A program made the translations under genes and the position numbers. Under the pieces are notes generated by a model. The model worked only from the letters and a program-made list of their open reading frames with translations. It had not been told where the DNA came from and did no database searches. 40,890 nucleotides of DNA from an uncultured Bacilli bacterium (GTDB lineage Bacteria; Bacillota_I; Bacilli_A; RF39; UBA660): contig CALVJW010000011.1 in assembly GCA_944332435.1 (NCBI GenBank), positions 1 through 40,890 of the forward strand. Direction: 5' to 3'. Below, piece after piece: positions 1 through 40,890 of this stretch (within the stretch, counting starts at the first letter, position 1; every line of letters begins with the position of its first letter).

Positions 1-1548
1 ATCTTCTAGTTTTGCTATATTTGCCCCTTCTACAAGCCATGCAAACTTATAAATATATTCGGCATCTCCTGTTGCTATAATTATATCTTCTAGTTTTCCG
101 ATATTTGTTCCTTCTACAACAACCGCAAATTCACAAATAAATTTTACGTTTCCTGTTGCTATTATTGCAGATTCGAGCCTTTCAACATTGGCTCCCTCTA
201 CATCTTCTGCAAAACCGCAAATATATTTGGCATCTCCTGTTGCTATTATTGCTTCTTCTAATTTTTCAATGTTTGCTCCTTCTACTTTTCTTGCAAACCA
301 ATAAATATATTTGGCATTTCCGGTTGCTATAACGGCATCCTCGAGTTTTTCAATATTTGCTCTTTTCACATTTCTTGCAAAATCATAAATATATTCGAAA
401 TTTCCTGTTGTTATAATTGCATCTTCTAATTTTGATATATTTGTTCCTCCGACAAACCATGCAAACTTATAAATATATTCGGCATCTCCTGTTGTTATAA
501 TTGCTTCTTCTAGTTTTTCAACATTGGCTCCTTCTACATTTCTTGCAAAATCACAAATATATGAGGCATCTCCTGTTGCTATAATTGCATCTTCTAGTTT
601 TTCAACGTTTGCTCCTTCTATATTCTTTTCAAAGTCATAAATATATGAGGCATCTCCTGTTGCTATAATTGCATCTTCTAGCTTTTCAACATTGGCTCCT
701 TCTACATTCATTGCAAAATCATAAATATATTCTGCATTTCTTGTATTTATAACAGCAGTCTCTAACTTTGAAATGTTTGCTCCTTCTACACCATCTGCAA
801 ACAAATAAATATATTGGGCATCTCCTATTGCTATAATAGCGTTTTCTAATTTTGCGATATTTGCTCTTTTCACATCACTTGCAAAATAATAAATATAAGC
901 AGGATTGCCTATTTTTATAAGTGCATCTTCTAATTTTGGCACATTTGCGTTTTCCACCTCATGGGAAAACTCATAAATATATTTAGCACTTTCTATTGAT
1001 ATAATTGCTTTTTCTAATTTTTTGACATTGGCTTCTTTTACATATCTTGCAAAATCACAAATATATTCAGCCTCTCCTGTCGCTATCATTGCTTCTGCTA
1101 ATTTTGCAATATTTGCTCCTTTTACATATCTTGCAAAAGCATGCATATAATATACATTTCTTGTTGCTATAATACCTTCTTCTAACTTCGGAATATTTGC
1201 ATTTTCTACATTTATCGCAAACTCATAAATATACTCGACATTTCCAGTTGATATAATAGCGTCTTCTAATTTCTCTATATTTGCTCCTTCTACATATCTT
1301 GCAAAATCACAAATATATTCAGCCTCTCCTGTCGCTATGACAGCATCTTCTAATTTTGCAATATTTGCTCCGTCTACATCTTTTGCAAACCAATAAATAT
1401 ATTTAGCATCTCCTATTGCTATGATAGCATCCTCAAGCTTATCTAATACTCTTTTATTATTTTTTTTCTTTCCGCAAGCATAATTTAAAATCATGAATGC
1501 ATCGTTACAATTTAAAATTTCTTGTATTTCTTTTTTTTCTCTAACCAT
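1..1548 (-). CDS. 28-residue helical-repeat protein, partial (C-terminus beyond window)
   Basis: The frame is open from an ATG at 1548 to the window edge (516 codons), so the C-terminus is missing. A 36-residue N-terminal cap (MVREKKEIQEILN...) is followed by 17 complete 28-residue repeats and the start of an 18th. Each repeat follows the pattern KLEDAIIATG, then a DAxYIY turn and helix, then xFARxVEGANIE. The predicted shape is two short helices per unit, hence an alpha-solenoid. No signal peptide or membrane segment is seen, so it is probably cytoplasmic. The start is fixed by AAGGAAGG just upstream and by the matching cap of the neighbouring paralogue at 1715-3889. Its own promoter lies at 1574-1601. 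The family is not one I can name with certainty and no enzymatic motif is visible. Function unknown; protein or ligand binding is an inference from the repeat architecture. Confidence 0.8.
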   Translation of the reverse strand, partial: MVREKKEIQEILNCNDAFMILNYACGKKKNNKRVLDKLEDAIIAIGDAKYIYWFAKDVDGANIAKLEDAVIATGEAEYICDFARYVEGANIEKLEDAIISTGNVEYIYEFAINVENANIPKLEEGIIATRNVYYMHAFARYVKGANIAKLAEAMIATGEAEYICDFARYVKEANVKKLEKAIISIESAKYIYEFSHEVENANVPKLEDALIKIGNPAYIYYFASDVKRANIAKLENAIIAIGDAQYIYLFADGVEGANISKLETAVINTRNAEYIYDFAMNVEGANVEKLEDAIIATGDASYIYDFEKNIEGANVEKLEDAIIATGDASYICDFARNVEGANVEKLEEAIITTGDAEYIYKFAWFVGGTNISKLEDAIITTGNFEYIYDFARNVKRANIEKLEDAVIATGNAKYIYWFARKVEGANIEKLEEAIIATGDAKYICGFAEDVEGANVERLESAIIATGNVKFICEFAVVVEGTNIGKLEDIIIATGDAEYIYKFAWLVEGANIAKLED

Positions 1549-1573
1549 AAGTTTTCCTTCCTTTTGTTTTTTT

Positions 1574-1601
1574 ATTATAACATAAAAAGTTACATTGTCA
1601 A
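1574..1601 (-). promoter_or_regulatory. sigma-A-type promoter for the partial repeat gene
   Basis: On the minus strand, TTGACA (1601-1596), a 16-bp spacer and TATAAT (1579-1574) lie about 30 bp upstream of the ATG at 1548. Both hexamers are perfect. The same promoter, with the same spacer length, precedes the paralogue at 1715-3889. Confidence 0.85.
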
Positions 1602-1701
1602 CGAAATGCTAGTATCAAATACTCTGTTACTTCTTTAGAAAAATACCATACTAATATTGTTATTATCAATAAAATCGATATCGTACTATAACATAACAAA
1701 G

Positions 1702-1720
1702 GAGTGATCAGCAATCACTC
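1702..1720 (-). terminator. hairpin at the end of the 1715-3889 gene
   Basis: GAGTGAT and ATCACTC form a 7-bp stem overlapping the TGA stop. The following T-run is weak (CTTTG). The equivalent hairpin beside the decayed copy (4039-4059) has a clean T-run, so this looks like a weakened terminator. Confidence 0.5.
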
Positions 1721-3889
1721 TTCAAAACTATCTTTACTATATGTTGGCTTATTATTATATTCGATACATTTTGGTTTTTTACCACTACAAACTTGAGATG
1801 ATTCTTTTTCTAAAAAAGAATCTCTATGTAAATAGTATGATGACGTACTAAGTTCTTTTAATAACTTCAAGTATAAATCTTTTTTTCCATTATCTTTAGC
1901 ACTAGATGCAACAACATGTAAGAATACTTTTTCATCCGTCAAAGATATATTATTCAACCATTCAATCTCTTCTTTTGATAATAAAGGTTTAGTATCCGAG
2001 TTTTTATTCGAAGACTCTTGAATGTTTTCATGATTTTGTGTAGCTTGTTCTAAACCTTGAATATCCACTTCTTCAATTTTTGTAATAGCATCCTCTAATT
2101 TTCTAATATTTGCTCTTTTTACATCTCTTGCAAAAGAACAAATATCATCTACATTTCCGGTTGCTATAACGGCATCCTCGAGTTTTTCAATATTTGCTCC
2201 TCTTACATCAATAGCAAACTCACAAATATCATCTACATTTCCGGTTGCTATAACGGCATCTTCTAACTTTGTGATACTTGCTCCTTCTACATCTCTTGCA
2301 AACCTATAAATATATTTTAGATTTCTAGTTGCTATAACGGCATCCTCTAACTTTGTGATACTCGCTCTTTTTACATCTCTTGCAAAATAATAAATATATC
2401 CGGCATCTCCAACTGTTATAATTGCATCTTCTAATTTTGTTATATCTGCATCTTCTACATTTCTTGCAAAAGAACAAATATCATCCCCATTTCCGGTTGC
2501 TATAACGGCATCTTCTAGTTTTTCAATGTTTGCTCCGTTTACTTCTCTTGCAAACTCATGTATATATTTGACATTTCCTATTGCTATAACAGCATCCTCG
2601 AGTTTTTCAATATTTGCCCTTTTGACATATAATGCAAAATAATAAATATATTCAGCATCTCCGATTTTTATAATTGCATCCTCTAATTTTGAGAAATTAT
2701 CTCTTTTTGCATCTCTTGCAAAGAGGCAAATATATTCGGCATTTTCTGTTTTTATAATGGCATCTTCTAATTTTAGTACATTTACTCCTTTTACATCTCT
2801 TGCAAACCTATAAATATAGTCTGCGCTTCCTGTTCCTATAATAGTGTCTTCTAACTTTGAAATATTTGTTCCTTTTACGTATCTGGCAAAATAATATATA
2901 TATTTAGCAGTTCCTATTCCTATAATAGTGTCTTCTAACTTTAAAATATTTGCTCCTTTTACGTATCTGGCAAAATAATATATATATTCGGCATCTCCTG
3001 TTGCTATAATGGCATCTTCTAATTTTTCAATGTTTGCTCCTTCTACTTTTCTTGCAAACCTATAAATATATTGGACATTTCCTATTGCTATGATAGCATC
3101 TTCTAATTTTTCAATGTTTGCTCCCTCTACATCTCTTGCAAACCTATAAATATATTCGGCATTTCCTATTGCTATTATTGCTTCTTCTAATTTATCAATG
3201 TTTATTCCTTCTACCTCTGTTGCAAAATTATAAATATACTCGGCATCTCCTGTTGCTATTATTGCTTCTTCTAATTTTTCAATGTTTGCTCCTTCTACAT
3301 CTCTTGCAAACCAATAAATATATTTGGCATCTCCTATTGCTATTATTGCTTCTTCTAATTTATCAATGTTTGTTCCTTCTACCTCTGTTGCAAAATTATA
3401 AATATACTCGGCATCTCCTGTTGCTATTATTGCTTCTTCTAATTTTTCAATGTTTGCTCCTTCTACTTTTCTTGCAAACCAATAAATATATTTGGCATCT
3501 CCTATTGATATAATTGCTTTTTCTAATTTTTCAACATTTGCATTTTCCACTATATATGCAAAATAAGCAATATATTGTGCATTCCCCGTTGTTATAATTG
3601 CATCTTCTAATTTTTCAATATTTGCTCCTTTTACATTTTCTGCAAAAGAACAAATATGATTTGCTTTTCCTATTGCTATGATAGCATCTTCTAATTTTGA
3701 GATGTTTACCATTTTCACCTCTCTTGCAAAAAAACAAATATAACTTGGATCACCAATTTTTATAAGAGCATCTTCTAGTTTACCTAATGCTCCTTTACTA
3801 AATTTACTCTTTCTTCGAGCATAATCCAAAATTATATCTTTATCATTATATTTTAAAACTTCTTGTATTTCTATTTCTTCTCTGAACAT
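1715..3889 (-). CDS. 28-residue helical-repeat protein, complete (724 aa)
   Basis: A 36-residue cap (MFREEIEIQEVLK...) leads into 20 uninterrupted 28-residue repeats (about residues 37-596), a partial 21st, and a unique C-terminal region of roughly 110 residues (LLSKEEIEWLNNISLTDEK...). Repeats start KLED/KLEE, carry a YIYxFA core and end GANIE. The residue before FA varies widely (W, N, R, Y, E, S, L), while YIY and FA are nearly fixed. The open frame extends 19 codons upstream of 3889, but that extension covers the promoter. AGGAG before the ATG at 3889 and the paralogue's cap decide the start. No signal peptide, membrane helix or catalytic motif is visible. It is likely a cytoplasmic solenoid that binds something; the ligand is unknown. 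A related C-terminus persists in the remnant at 4060-4420. Confidence 0.85.
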   Translation of the reverse strand: MFREEIEIQEVLKYNDKDIILDYARRKSKFSKGALGKLEDALIKIGDPSYICFFAREVKMVNISKLEDAIIAIGKANHICSFAENVKGANIEKLEDAIITTGNAQYIAYFAYIVENANVEKLEKAIISIGDAKYIYWFARKVEGANIEKLEEAIIATGDAEYIYNFATEVEGTNIDKLEEAIIAIGDAKYIYWFARDVEGANIEKLEEAIIATGDAEYIYNFATEVEGINIDKLEEAIIAIGNAEYIYRFARDVEGANIEKLEDAIIAIGNVQYIYRFARKVEGANIEKLEDAIIATGDAEYIYYFARYVKGANILKLEDTIIGIGTAKYIYYFARYVKGTNISKLEDTIIGTGSADYIYRFARDVKGVNVLKLEDAIIKTENAEYICLFARDAKRDNFSKLEDAIIKIGDAEYIYYFALYVKRANIEKLEDAVIAIGNVKYIHEFAREVNGANIEKLEDAVIATGNGDDICSFARNVEDADITKLEDAIITVGDAGYIYYFARDVKRASITKLEDAVIATRNLKYIYRFARDVEGASITKLEDAVIATGNVDDICEFAIDVRGANIEKLEDAVIATGNVDDICSFARDVKRANIRKLEDAITKIEEVDIQGLEQATQNHENIQESSNKNSDTKPLLSKEEIEWLNNISLTDEKVFLHVVASSAKDNGKKDLYLKLLKELSTSSYYLHRDSFLEKESSQVCSGKKPKCIEYNNKPTYSKDSFEE
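3165..3500 (-). repeat. near-identical tandem 168-bp duplication inside the repeat gene
   Basis: Bases 3165-3332 and 3333-3500 match almost base for base at a shift of 168 bp, which is exactly two 28-codon units. The adjacent repeats are far more diverged, so this is a recent in-frame amplification of a two-repeat block. Confidence 0.85.
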
Positions 3890-4059: not shown

Positions 4060-4420
4060 ACTTCAAGCCTATCTTAACTATATATAATATGATAACGTAC
4101 TAAGTTCTTTTAATAACTACAATGTGAATCTTTTTTTCCATTATCTTTAACAATAGATGCAACAGCATGTAAAAATACTTTTTCATCCGTCAAAGATATA
4201 TTAATCAACCATTTGATTTCTTCTTTTGATAATAAGGTTTTTAAATCTAAACTTTGGAAATTCCATTTTTCAATAATTTGTTTAAATCTATTAATATATT
4301 TTGCATCGTCTATCGCTATGATAGTGTCTTCTAATTTACCTAATACTTCTTCACTAATATGTTTCTTTTTTTACTATTATAATATAAAATTATCTAAGTA
4401 TTTAATGTTACAATAAATAA
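4060..4420 (-). pseudogene. decayed third copy of the repeat gene (repeats deleted)
   Basis: Read on the minus strand, this stretch starts with a cap-like segment carrying several in-frame stops, then VLGKLEDTIIAIDDAKYINRF (one repeat start). It then jumps directly to the family's C-terminal region (LLSKEEIKWLINISLTDEK, KVFLHAVASIVKDNGKK). A 1-base deletion relative to the live gene, just before the LLKEL segment, shifts the frame into TAA. All internal repeats are gone. The flanking terminator and the order cap, repeat, tail match the live gene at 1715-3889. This is a whole-gene duplicate that lost its repeats by deletion and then decayed. Nonsense codons in the cap and the frameshift make a functional product very unlikely. 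Confidence 0.8.
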
Positions 4421-15596: not shown

Positions 15597-16194
15597 ATTT
15601 CTTTTTAGTATAAACTTTTTCTTTTTCTTCTAAATAGCATTTGCGACATAATGATACATAAGTTACTTCATCTTTACCATCAATTGCAACTTGCTCGCCA
15701 TCGAAAACAAATTCATGATTAATTTTTCGTGTGTTAAAAATTGCTTTTTCACCACATCGACAAAGAGTTCGTAACTCTTCTATTTCATCAGCAATTTCTA
15801 ATAAACGCTTACTCCCTCCAAATAACTGCGTTTTAAAATCAGTTCTAAGACCATAACACATCACTGTGATATTCATTTTATCAACAATCATACCAAGTTC
15901 ATCAATTTGATTTTCCGTTAAAAACTGAGCTTCATCTACAAAGATACATTTAATATTATTACGAATTAAATCCCCTGCGACAAGATCAAAAATACTATCT
16001 TCTTGTTTGATTAAATAATCAACTTGTAATATAGAACCATTTCTTGATACAATCTTTGTTTCTCCTTTTGTATCTAATTTTGGTTTCATTAATACCGTAT
16101 TTAATCCTAACTCCTCATAATTATAATGGGTTTTAATAATATCTAAGGTTTTACCAGAATTCATTGCTCCATATCGAAAATATAATTTAGCCAT
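15595..16194 (-). CDS. tdk: thymidine kinase (type II)
   Basis: It phosphorylates thymidine to dTMP in the salvage route. Walker A GAMNSGKT is at residues 9-16, Walker B IFVDEAQF at about 84-91, and the C-terminal lasso region carries zinc-ligand Cys145, Cys147 (CRCG) and Cys183, Cys186 (CRKC). At 199 residues it is of normal length for the TK1-like type. The gene begins 7 bp after the TM2-domain gene, so the two share a promoter (16605-16613). Presence of tdk suggests reliance on external thymidine, an inference consistent with a host-associated life. Confidence 0.95.
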   Translation of the reverse strand: MAKLYFRYGAMNSGKTLDIIKTHYNYEELGLNTVLMKPKLDTKGETKIVSRNGSILQVDYLIKQEDSIFDLVAGDLIRNNIKCIFVDEAQFLTENQIDELGMIVDKMNITVMCYGLRTDFKTQLFGGSKRLLEIADEIEELRTLCRCGEKAIFNTRKINHEFVFDGEQVAIDGKDEVTYVSLCRKCYLEEKEKVYTKKK

Positions 16195-20681: not shown

Positions 20682-20708
20682 AAATATATACAAAGTATGT
20701 ATATATTT
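20682..20708 (-). terminator. terminator of the 20708-22567 gene
   Basis: AAATATATAC and GTATATATTT form a 10-bp stem with a 7-nt loop, followed by further T. Confidence 0.75.
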
Positions 20709-22567
20709 TATCTTGATTTCTTAATTTGATAACTTAAATTAAGTTCTACATCATTTGGTATTTCTTCTAATGCATCAATAAATTGATCTAAACCAGAATT
20801 TGGAGCTCCAGCAACTGCATTATCATAAAGTTCTTCTACTAAAGAGTTTAACGTCACTGCTTGATTATCCTCTAAAAATGACTTTATTATTGCTAAAATA
20901 TCATCTTTAATAGTTGCTAAATCTCTTTTTGTTTTTTCATTTTCTAAATTTGCATTTGCATTTAATTGATAATAACATTTTATTTGTACCTGTAATTGTT
21001 TTTTCGTTTTTTCATCCAAAGCATCTATACTATGAGTAAGATTTTCTAACAACTCATTTGTAAAATTAATCATATTTTTTAGTGCATCTGGATGGTTTGC
21101 ATTTACTAATTGTTCTGTTAAAAATTCTTTTCCAAGTAAATTTACTATTTGTTTTTCTCTATCATCTAATAAAATTCTAGAAGTTGTTAACAATAATTTA
21201 GAAGTATCTAATACTATGATAATTTGTTCATTTAATCCTTGTTTTTGCAAATTGATTATTTTATCGATTAAAGATTTATCTAAACCTAATGCCAAAAATA
21301 ATTCTTCAACTATACTTGAATCTAATTGAAATATCTGATCTTTTAAATATTCTATTAAATCACTATTTTTATATTTTCTTTTAGCAATATCGTCTAAAAT
21401 TTCTAAAAATTGTAATAACCAAGCTTCATCATATTTTGAATAAAGTTGTTTAAAATTAGTTTGTATTTGTGAAAATGTCCCCCACTCATTCAATCTTAAA
21501 CCGATTAGTTTATCATAATCATAACTAAGTAAATATGCTCTTATATTTTCATTTTTAATTTGTGATGTAAAAGATAATAATTTTTCCATTTCTTTCATAG
21601 TATCAAAAGAAAAATCACATTCTATTAGTTTATCTGCATATTCTAATAATTTTTCTTGATTATTGAATACACAGGATAATTTCTTCATATGTCTCAATAC
21701 TTTTTTGACATGATTTTCTGGGCAATAGTACAACTTTTCTAAAAAAGGAACCCAGGAATTAAAAGTATCATTAATCATATATTCTAAAAATGGCAAATGA
21801 TCAATTAGCAATTCTTTTTGTTTATTTGGAAGATGGACAGCTGCAATATTAGATAAATAATTTTCTATTGCTTCTGCACTTTTGAGTCTATTTAATAAAG
21901 AAAGAATCGTCTCTGCTTTATTTGGATAATCAGAAATGAAATCTAGCAATTTGTTTGCATACTCCACTGTTCTTTGTTGGTTATTGAATACACGAGATAC
22001 TTTTTTCATATGATTCAATATTTTTTGGATGTGATCTTCTGGGAAATAGCACAACTTTTCTAAGAAAAAATCACTATTATTATTAATCGCATATTCTAAA
22101 AGTGGCAAATGATCAATTAGTAATTCTTTTTTCTCATTTGGAAGATTGATATGTGCAATACTACATAAATAATTTCCTATTGTTTCTGCACTTTTGAGCC
22201 TATTTAATAAAGAAAGAATCGTCTCTGCTTTATTTGGATGATCAGAAATTAACTCCAGTATATTATCTAAAGTATCTAAATTATCTAAATTATCTAAATT
22301 CTTTGTTAAATCAATATACTTTAAATTATTCTTTTTATAGACTTCTAAAAATAATTGAATAATGTCTGTATTTACTTTTCCCTTTAACGTAGCAACTATC
22401 ATTATCATGTCTTGCATTTTATCAAAATCTGTTTCACTTAAAATAATCTCTTCTTGTTCTTTTGTTAATTGTAGTAATTCTTTTATATAAAAATTTCTAT
22501 CATCAAAAAAAGTATTTCTTCCCAAGCCTGTATTTTGTAATAAATTGATTAGCGTTTCTTTTTTCAT
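20708..22567 (-). CDS. large helical protein with an internal 104-residue duplication
   Basis: I do not recognise this 619-residue protein. It appears all-helical, with no signal peptide, membrane helix or enzyme motif. Residues of about 104-207 and 208-315 are close copies: each has ISDxPNKAETILSLLNRLKS, LPNxxKELLIDHLPxLEY and then HMKKxSxVFNNQ. A short LDNLDNLDTLDN track precedes the first copy. Starting with MKKETLINLLQNTGLGRN, it has a very strong AAGGGGGA site and a perfect promoter. These resemble the control regions of the repeat genes at both window ends, so it may belong to the same class of cytoplasmic helical-scaffold proteins. That grouping rests on style, not homology. Function unknown. 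Confidence 0.7.
   Translation of the reverse strand: MKKETLINLLQNTGLGRNTFFDDRNFYIKELLQLTKEQEEIILSETDFDKMQDMIMIVATLKGKVNTDIIQLFLEVYKKNNLKYIDLTKNLDNLDNLDTLDNILELISDHPNKAETILSLLNRLKSAETIGNYLCSIAHINLPNEKKELLIDHLPLLEYAINNNSDFFLEKLCYFPEDHIQKILNHMKKVSRVFNNQQRTVEYANKLLDFISDYPNKAETILSLLNRLKSAEAIENYLSNIAAVHLPNKQKELLIDHLPFLEYMINDTFNSWVPFLEKLYYCPENHVKKVLRHMKKLSCVFNNQEKLLEYADKLIECDFSFDTMKEMEKLLSFTSQIKNENIRAYLLSYDYDKLIGLRLNEWGTFSQIQTNFKQLYSKYDEAWLLQFLEILDDIAKRKYKNSDLIEYLKDQIFQLDSSIVEELFLALGLDKSLIDKIINLQKQGLNEQIIIVLDTSKLLLTTSRILLDDREKQIVNLLGKEFLTEQLVNANHPDALKNMINFTNELLENLTHSIDALDEKTKKQLQVQIKCYYQLNANANLENEKTKRDLATIKDDILAIIKSFLEDNQAVTLNSLVEELYDNAVAGAPNSGLDQFIDALEEIPNDVELNLSYQIKKSR
21625..22256 (-). repeat. 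two 312-bp direct copies inside the helical gene
   Basis: A stretch starting at 21891 recurs at 22203 (shift 312 bp, 104 codons). The best-kept block, encoding ETILSLLNRLKSAE, is nearly identical in DNA, which indicates a fairly recent in-frame duplication. Confidence 0.8.
22263..22298 (-). repeat. 9-bp microrepeat (four units)
   Basis: TTATCTAAA repeats four times in phase (second unit GTATCTAAA), encoding a Leu-Asp-Asn/Thr track near residue 90-100. Slippage would change length by three residues without shifting the frame. Confidence 0.85.
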
Positions 22568-39091: not shown

Positions 39092-39128
39092 GAAAACAAA
39101 AAGATAGATATGAAACCATGTCTATCTT
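39092..39128 (-). terminator. terminator of the diverged repeat gene
   Basis: AAGATAGACA and TATCTATCTT form an imperfect 10-bp stem followed by TTTGTTTT; it overlaps the stop of the 39122 gene. Confidence 0.7.
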
Positions 39129-40399
39129 CTATTTTTTCTATGTTTTGTTTTTACTGCACTTGGTTGACTTTGAAAATCGTTTTTTAATATTTCATCTATA
39201 CTCATAAATGCAAAATCTTCAATTGTATCTATATCTATATGATACACAGTATAGAAAAATGCCTTAATACAATGAATATTCCCAGTTTCTAAAAACACTC
39301 TTTCTATTTTTTTAACATCTGCACCTGGGATATCTTTCGCAAAATCGCAAATACATTCTACATCACACGTTTTAATCATAGCTTCTTCTAATTTTTCAAT
39401 ATTTGCACCTGGAACATACTTTGCAAAATCATAAAGAGCAGCTGCAAGGTAATCACTTTTTATTTTTACAAGTGCATCCTCTAATTTTGCAACATCAGCA
39501 TCTTCTGCACATACAGCAAACTCAAAAATAGCTCGTGGATTTCTTGCTTTTATAAGAGCATCTTCTATTTTTGAACAATCTATATTTTTATTTGCATCTT
39601 TGATAGCTTTAAAAAACAAATTAATATAATAAACGTCTCCCGTTTTAAGCATAGCATCGGTCATTTTTTCAACATTGATATATTTATGTTCTTTTAACAT
39701 TTTTTCTACAAGATTATAAAGCCACCTTGCTATAAAAGTATTAATATATGTTTTATCTTCTGCCTTGTTTAACACATTGGCTAGTCTTTTTATATCAGCA
39801 CCTTCTGCATACATAAACCAAAAAATAGCTTTTATATCCCCTGTATTTACAACAGCATCTTCTAATTCTGGAATATTAGCTCCTTTTACTTCACATGCAA
39901 AATCAGCAAGAAGATGAGCATCACCTGTTTTTATAACAAGATCTTGTAATTTTGCAATATTAGCCCCTTTTACATCCCTAGCAAATTCAAAAAGAAGATC
40001 AGCATCACCTGTTTTTATAACAAAATCTTGTAATTTTTCAACATTAGCCCCTTTTACATTCCTAGCAAATCTATAAATAAATTTTGCATTTGCTTTTTTT
40101 ATAACAGCATTCTCTAATTTTTCAATGTCTGCACTATTTACATTTTTAGCAAACTCATAGATATCTGCTTCGTTTCCCATTTCTATAATAGCATCTTGTA
40201 ACTTTTCAATGTTTGCACCTTTAATGCTTTTTGCAAATTCAACAATATAGAATAAATTTTCTGTTCGAATCAATGCATCCTCAAACGCTCCTAATTTCGT
40301 TTCATTAAGCCTATATCTATTTTTTTTCACATAGAAATAAATATCACTAGCTTCATTAGAGTTTAACATTTTTAAATCTTTTTTTTCCAAATTAAACAT
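39122..40399 (-). CDS. diverged 28-residue-repeat protein (425 aa)
   Basis: It is related to the proteins at the left end. After a cap of about 38 residues (MFNLEKKDLKML...) come about 12 units with the same framework: KLQDAIIEMG, xIYEFAK or LLFEFARDV, then KGANIE/KGANIA. The middle units differ in length (one about 40 residues, LYNLVEKMLKEHKYI inserted), and the YIYxFA core is looser, so this is an older, degenerate relative. The tail is basic (KTKHRKNRR). The start at 40399 is chosen because a strong AAGGGGGA precedes it, and the 11-codon extension upstream overlaps the promoter. No signal peptide, membrane helix or catalytic motif. Function unknown. Confidence 0.8.
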   Translation of the reverse strand: MFNLEKKDLKMLNSNEASDIYFYVKKNRYRLNETKLGAFEDALIRTENLFYIVEFAKSIKGANIEKLQDAIIEMGNEADIYEFAKNVNSADIEKLENAVIKKANAKFIYRFARNVKGANVEKLQDFVIKTGDADLLFEFARDVKGANIAKLQDLVIKTGDAHLLADFACEVKGANIPELEDAVVNTGDIKAIFWFMYAEGADIKRLANVLNKAEDKTYINTFIARWLYNLVEKMLKEHKYINVEKMTDAMLKTGDVYYINLFFKAIKDANKNIDCSKIEDALIKARNPRAIFEFAVCAEDADVAKLEDALVKIKSDYLAAALYDFAKYVPGANIEKLEEAMIKTCDVECICDFAKDIPGADVKKIERVFLETGNIHCIKAFFYTVYHIDIDTIEDFAFMSIDEILKNDFQSQPSAVKTKHRKNRR

Positions 40400-40539: not shown

Positions 40540-40646
40540 TATATATATCTAGCAAGTCAAATTAAAATCTAACTTGATATCTTATCATTTATACTAGTAC
40601 AATTCTAAAATTGATTGAACCATCTTTAAATACTGATTAAAAACCC

Positions 40647-40890
40647 CTATCTTGTTTTTGGTTGTTCTTCTAAGTCCATATCTTCAGACAAATGTAAATC
40701 ATCAAAGCTTCCATCTAACCATGCTTTTCTAATTACTTCTTCCAATTTTCCAAAGTCTACTCCTTCTAAATTTCTTGCATACTCTGAAATATCATCTGAA
40801 CTAATTTCACTGCTTTGCTTTGCTTTTTTAATTGCTTCTTCCAATTTTCCAAAGTCTACTCCTTCTAAATTTCTTGCATACTCTGAAATA
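40647..40890 (-). CDS. C-terminal end of a 33-residue-repeat protein, partial
   Basis: The frame is open from the window edge to TAG at 40647-40649 (80 codons seen). It contains ISEYARNLEGVDFGKLEE, a linker AIKKAKQSSEISSDD, the same ISEYARNLEGVDFGKLEE block again, then a divergent acidic tail ending EEQPKTR. The repeat step is 33 residues, and the 50 bases at 40742-40791 recur exactly at 40841-40890 (shift 99 bp). The EYARNLEGVDFGKLEE core recalls the xFARxVEGANIEKLED core of the 28-residue family, with a longer linker. An internal TTG (40844) could be misread as a start, but the frame continues upstream with repeat sequence. The N-terminus lies outside the window. Confidence 0.75.
   Translation of the reverse strand, partial: ISEYARNLEGVDFGKLEEAIKKAKQSSEISSDDISEYARNLEGVDFGKLEEVIRKAWLDGSFDDLHLSEDMDLEEQPKTR

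Follow-up and report, generated by a model that had tools for sequence, protein, structure and literature searches.

A predicted alpha-solenoid family of 28-residue repeats with one most variable, exposed position in an uncultured Bacilli bacterium

Contig CALVJW010000011.1 of an uncultured Bacilli bacterium (GenBank assembly GCA_944332435.1) opens with two genes, A and B, that consist largely of tandem 28-residue units, each with one strikingly free residue in a nearly fixed frame. What are such proteins for, and does the free residue belong to a binding surface that can be tuned by shuffling units, as had been proposed from the DNA letters (hereafter the original prediction)? The window that we analysed is the entire contig (C11), 40,890 b, from a 0.94-Mb assembly that is 66% complete (genome G000). 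We conclude that the repeats form a predicted alpha-solenoid family, working like other alpha-solenoids, for which no Pfam, NCBIfam or PDB relative was found; as to their role, we tentatively favour cytosolic modular binders diversified by conflict as the best reading. The parts of the two genes are as follows.

1..1548, minus strand: gene A, open at the contig start; N-terminal cap and 17 complete units (open reading frame (ORF) call).
16..1443, minus strand: gene A array; 17 units of 28 amino acids, residues 36-511 (unit parsing, Tandem Repeats Finder).
1715..3889, minus strand: gene B, complete; 724 amino acids, made up of N-terminal cap, 20 units and C-terminal region (ORF, unit parsing, AlphaFold2).
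3785..3889, minus strand: gene B N-terminal cap; 35 amino acids.
2105..3784, minus strand: gene B array; 20 units of 28 amino acids, residues 36-595 (unit parsing, Tandem Repeats Finder).
1718..2104, minus strand: gene B C-terminal region; residues 596-724, predicted helix to about residue 624, low confidence beyond.

The original prediction counted 37 complete units in the two genes, and this count holds (17 in A and 20 in B), with a unit length of exactly 28 residues throughout; Tandem Repeats Finder reports an 84-bp period with 17.0 and 19.7 copies. The framework, given there as KLEDAI, YIY, FA, V and GANIE, is near-fixed as described, and in our parsing of A and B reads KLEDAII, YIY, FA, V, GANI. 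We number the residue between YIY and FA as position 18 (17 in the earlier count). The order of residues given earlier for this position along gene B is correct, and that along the partial gene A needs a single change, the ninth residue being D rather than N (W D E A D E Y L D D D K D W G E K). Position 18 has the highest entropy in A and B (3.33 bits, 12 residue types) and ranks first in 965 of 1000 bootstraps over units. In a wider set of 373 distinct units from 55 proteins it reaches 3.70 bits with 19 residue types and ranks first in all 1000 unit bootstraps and all 500 protein bootstraps, so that the expectation that homologues would be more variable here than at neighbouring positions is borne out. 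The idea of one free position survives only in part: position 18 is the most variable, but positions 1, 9, 14, 21 and 22 vary too. In A and B, positions 22, 1, 21 and 14 come next, at 2.5-2.8 bits; in the 373-unit set, positions 21 and 14 stand at about 3.0 bits, and 9 and 22 at about 2.8 bits. Among 51 young unit pairs, which differ by 1-8 nt and are not independent of one another, amino acid changes are concentrated at positions 22, 14, 18, 24 and 21, and none has occurred at framework positions 3, 8, 10, 15, 16, 17 and 19. The variable feature is thus mainly a patch on one helix face (positions 14, 18, 21 and 22 with their flanks), not a single residue.

AlphaFold2 predicts gene B to be a regular helical rod (pLDDT 84.5, mostly above 95 in the repeats, with a low-confidence tail from about residue 620), and a six-unit fragment is modelled with pLDDT 98.2 and pTM 0.90. 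Each unit contributes two helices, helix A at about positions 1-10 and helix B at 13-22, such that the proteins fall, by prediction only, within the general alpha-solenoid class of tandem alpha-helical units forming an open rod; AlphaFold2 can be overconfident on repeat sequences, chiefly by modelling them as beta-solenoids (PMC11795689). Position 18 falls near the centre of predicted helix B, at an angle of about 150 degrees to the helix's hydrophobic moment, and is therefore exposed and not buried, which fits the original proposal; positions 14 and 21 are on the same side. Because the solenoid is regular, position 18 recurs on the same face of successive units. Foldseek comparison of the six-unit model with 350,542 PDB chains returned no match at E <= 0.001, with a TMq of at most 0.45 among the matches listed, and the full model matched only generic solenoids at TM < 0.25. 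The same searches gave no superposition better than these on a solved Armadillo, HEAT, TPR, Sel1, PPR, PUF or ankyrin structure.

Arrays of this family are copied and rebuilt rapidly. In gene B (zero-based numbering), units 4 and 6 are copies with 99% identity and units 5 and 7 copies with 95%; the latter pair already differs, W to R, at position 18. At the syntenic loci L047 and L049, pheT is 97.9% identical and the repeat gene behind it only 58% identical, with 12 versus 19 units whose order does not match; at L046 and L061, neighbouring genes are 94-96% identical and the repeat genes 86% and 59%. Whole genes also come and go between sister species. G001 is close to G000 (amino acid identity of 98% for def, 96% for tig and 95% for pfkB) and has no repeat genes at the three places where G000 has them (before def, in the tig-greA interval and in the ppdK-pfkB interval); it carries a repeat cluster behind a rhomboid gene, at a site free of repeat genes in G000. 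Both the tandem copying of units and the turnover of arrays are observed directly, as the notion of repeat shuffling had anticipated. A separate difference between the two genomes is a gene at L105:12603-13871 in G001, found only there, between a DHH gene and tig, which on inspection by eye looks like a reverse transcriptase of the group II intron kind.

The ppdK-pfkB site is occupied by an island. This insertion of about 9 kb, absent from G001 (L009:1438-10472, on G000 contig C3), contains in order genes for a helix-turn-helix protein, an unknown protein and a serine recombinase, an ApeA_NTD1-like gene and repeat genes D and E. No target-site or end repeats were found at the ends of this island. 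The ApeA-like gene (L009 5008-6432) scores just below the Pfam ApeA_NTD1 cut-off and has an RNAISH motif of the Rx4H, HEPN-like kind (comparison source PMC3710099). The suggested link between repeat order and phage found no support, and this gene, on its recombinase island, is the sole hint among the neighbours. Other defence-linked matches are scattered: away from this single island, they comprise ToxN/AbiQ and Fic matches. The pooled neighbour scan held one ToxN and one AbiQ match, with L045:11873 as the likely source, and probable ToxN/AbiQ-type toxin genes stand near repeat genes at L045:11873-12370 and at L054:12841-13338 and 15680-16153.

Codon 18 carries a signal of its own. The proportion of non-synonymous differences (pN) at this codon is 1.5-1.7 times the overall synonymous proportion (pS), against 0.00-0.2 at fixed framework positions, and by parsimony, changes at its first and second bases are at least as frequent as those at most four-fold synonymous sites. 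This pattern is compatible with mild diversifying selection, and neutrality is also possible. At this codon, 59 of 64 units (those at 1-3889 of the window and at L009:7190-10256) have G or T as their third base (Fisher p 6e-19), with Lys encoded by AAG in nine of nine cases and Arg of the AGR type by AGG in six of six, while A-ending codons dominate elsewhere; relatives show a weaker excess of third-base G (p 6e-10). We considered targeted mutagenesis as the source of this bias, and disfavour it: third-base synonymous changes are about as rare at codon 18 as at neighbouring codons, and for this reason the bias probably reflects descent from NNG and NNT codons combined with non-synonymous changes.

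The regions that flank the arrays are partly constant. N- and C-terminal regions sort into groups common to paralogues whose arrays differ (for example, the tail KYEQLFTDDT), and the tail motif YxxLFxxD recurs in this way, a point that we count in favour of the reading proposed below. By eye, the C-terminal region of gene B is like the C-termini of three genes at L055 (LSKEEIEWLxNxSL... / SEEEKRWLINFSL...). Decayed pieces of this region lie past the stops of D and E (L009) and upstream of B (4098-4259); the C-terminal region is therefore being lost in paralogues. No signal peptide or transmembrane segment was seen in the gene B cap. One relative is built differently: in the repeat protein at L043:10234-12309, the N-terminus is coiled-coil-like and a hydrophobic segment that may span the membrane precedes 14 units.

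Taken from sequence and predicted fold, the fast-changing exposed face suggests a tunable binding surface shaped by conflict, and we propose the following reading. The family would be a lineage-restricted cytosolic alpha-solenoid in which each 28-residue unit forms two short helices, with 5-20 units stacked as a rod between a constant N-terminal cap and a C-terminal region that varies less among paralogues. The exposed face of helix B (positions 14, 18, 21 and 22, chiefly 18) would present a ladder of side chains, most of them aromatic, charged or amide; units would be copied in tandem, lost, and then altered at this face, such that the surface changes and the frame is undisturbed. The proteins may thereby recognise variable macromolecular partners, probably other proteins, in intracellular conflict with phage, mobile elements or competitors, with the termini supplying a function common to all arrays. 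Several observations weigh against this proposal: pN/pS at codon 18 exceeds 1 only modestly; the ApeA-like match is below the cut-off and occurs at one site only; most neighbours are unrelated housekeeping genes, and the scan of neighbours found no constant partner; PADLOC models gave no match to repeat proteins B and D; and the decay of the C-terminal region after the stops of D and E means that a constant output domain is not general.

We regard as doubtful the more specific proposal that this is an unrecognised bacterial system of intracellular recognition, in which each unit would have a single main specificity position and in which units would be shuffled by tandem duplication and carried between sites, partly on recombinase islands, to form a repertoire of protein binders used in conflict with phage or competitors. 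If targets were read additively, unit by unit, the repeats would amount to a natural modular code for protein or peptide recognition. If the ladder does bind peptides or proteins, the family would offer a natural, highly regular scaffold, diversified at one position of each unit and already available in many variants, that could be put to use in engineering repeat proteins; gut bacteria with small genomes may then have a conflict system so far unrecognised. Even if no ligand exists, this is an abundant solenoid family with no coherent Pfam or NCBIfam match and no close PDB structure, and because it turns over so fast between sister species, the evolution of repeat arrays can be measured in it.

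The alternative that survives best, and that we consider possible if less probable than conflict-driven binding, is a structural or scaffold solenoid whose exposed face is neutral and whose arrays are turned over by duplication and gene conversion, with no selection for recognition. Such neutrality would account for a pN/pS of only about 1.5 at codon 18, comparable to fast synonymous sites, for the variation at several neighbouring exposed positions, for the closeness of near-identical units (spacing mostly 1-3 units) and for the presence of decayed relics. It fits less well with the persistence of intact genes of up to 20 units, or with the margin of 0.5-0.85 bit by which position 18 exceeds every other position. 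Moreover, residues at position 18 are filtered: 25% are aromatic and 39% charged, Glu is the commonest, Tyr, Trp and His are frequent, Ile, Val and Thr together make up 2.7%, and Pro does not occur, a set distinct from that at other exposed positions such as 9 and 1. 

Secretion is another possibility, in which the proteins would be effectors or surface antigens that vary to suit a host or to escape its immunity, as ankyrin or leucine-rich repeat effectors do. The gut-associated genomes, long arrays and rapid variation would suit this role; we nonetheless consider it unlikely, given that no signal peptide or anchor was seen in A, B, D or most relatives, and only the L043 variant has, by eye, a hydrophobic N-terminal segment. 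We judge it improbable that the repeats are a programmable nucleic-acid binder resembling TALE (transcription activator-like effector), PUF or PPR proteins, with position 18 reading one base per unit. Near-identical units with one most variable position are what such a binder would have, and the weak top match of the six-unit model by TM-score is a Pumilio domain (TMq 0.45, root-mean-square deviation 8.4). Proteins A and B are, however, strongly acidic (pI 4.5-4.8, net charge about -37), a few relatives being basic, for which such binding is still conceivable, and the prevalence of Glu at position 18 and its up to 19 residue types are unlike a small base code. Lastly, a diversity-generating retroelement directed at position 18 is very improbable, even though one codon position varies most inside a fixed frame, since changes affect all three codon bases and several positions after tandem duplication, and the 66%-complete assembly contains no reverse transcriptase (PF00078, RVT_1), the template repeat not having been searched for.

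How widespread is the family? An 83-column profile matched 82 of 385 genomes of the order, in 28 of 117 genera, and matches in class and phylum samples were confined to genomes of the same bacterial family. Judged by these profile matches, the repeat is limited, among the sampled genomes, to one bacterial family, and is patchy within it. Named relatives are mostly metagenome-assembled genomes of uncultured Bacilli, many with "Lapin" in their sample names (apparently rabbit); others include Candidatus Pelethosoma merdigallinarum (Mycoplasmatota at NCBI) and a few with Clostridia names. One genome, judging by its name, is from chicken. Repeat genes are often found in tandem, two or three together. 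Armadillo, HEAT, TPR, Sel1, PPR, PUF and ankyrin profiles gave no coherent match in Pfam or NCBIfam, PDB sequence searches gave a single chance match and otherwise nothing, and searches of phage, plasmid and IMG/VR sequences found no homologue, returning nothing or chance matches at E > 1. Matches to other Pfam, NCBIfam and PHROGs entries (DUF1184, XPG_N, TrkA, OHA and others) were rejected as short, incoherent, specific to single members and accumulated over repeats. We found no earlier description of the repeat family in the literature.

Within this assembly the family also extends beyond positions 1-3889, to genes D and E on contig C3 and to repeat sequence at both edges of the break between contigs C11 and C9, and the window itself contains the following further parts.

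4081..4338 (approximate), minus strand: relic of a third gene, containing a stop; what is left is the end of the N-terminal cap, a single unit and some of the C-terminal region.
39122..40399, minus strand: gene C, a divergent paralogue lying between tig and the end of the contig; some of its approximately ten units are irregular.
40640..40890, minus strand: small ORF left incomplete by the end of the contig, carrying a longer variant of the repeat, ISEYARNLEGVDFGKLEEAIKKAK; a near-copy starts contig C9.

The end of C11 (40890) and the start of C9 (L010:1-709) both terminate within one repeat-rich tig-greA cluster, and the break between them was probably caused by the repeats. A near-duplicate leader, CATCAACTATGCTTGGTAAAAGAA, precedes the small repeat ORFs on both contigs. 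Elsewhere in the window, 20708-22567 on the minus strand encodes a 619-residue Leu/Asn-rich protein, probably of the helical-repeat kind, for which Pfam gave nothing at E 0.01.

Among known systems, TALEs share with these repeats a diversified position in each unit. TALE repeats are 33-35 residues long, with a variable diresidue at positions 12 and 13 and readout by residue 13 (PMC3978159, PMC11514114). The present units differ in being exactly 28 residues long with no Pfam TAL match, in placing the variable residue in the middle of helix B, in varying at positions 1, 9, 14, 18, 21 and 22 and not at a diresidue alone, and in belonging to acidic proteins with no PDB sequence match. The best match among viral models (BFVD) is A0A6J5RY29, an uncultured Caudovirales protein of unknown function (TM 0.56 when scaled to the length of the target, with 25% identity across 223 columns); it may be a remote relative, the repeats themselves having matched nothing by sequence among phage records, plasmids and IMG/VR. 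Sel1-like and TPR proteins are likewise two-helix bacterial solenoids that serve as protein-binding scaffolds; their units are 34-40 residues long, a Sel1 crystal structure aligns with a TMq of 0.34, and the repeats described here have no Pfam match. Armadillo and designed armadillo proteins, whose units comprise about 42 residues in three helices, are the most frequent kind among the weak Foldseek matches (best TMq <= 0.32) and have no sequence relation to these repeats. Nonetheless, the binding of peptides by armadillo proteins through ladders of side chains on exposed helices offers a plausible analogy for how the helix B face might work, and some arrays of this family (at L039 and L048) have runs of Asn at position 18.

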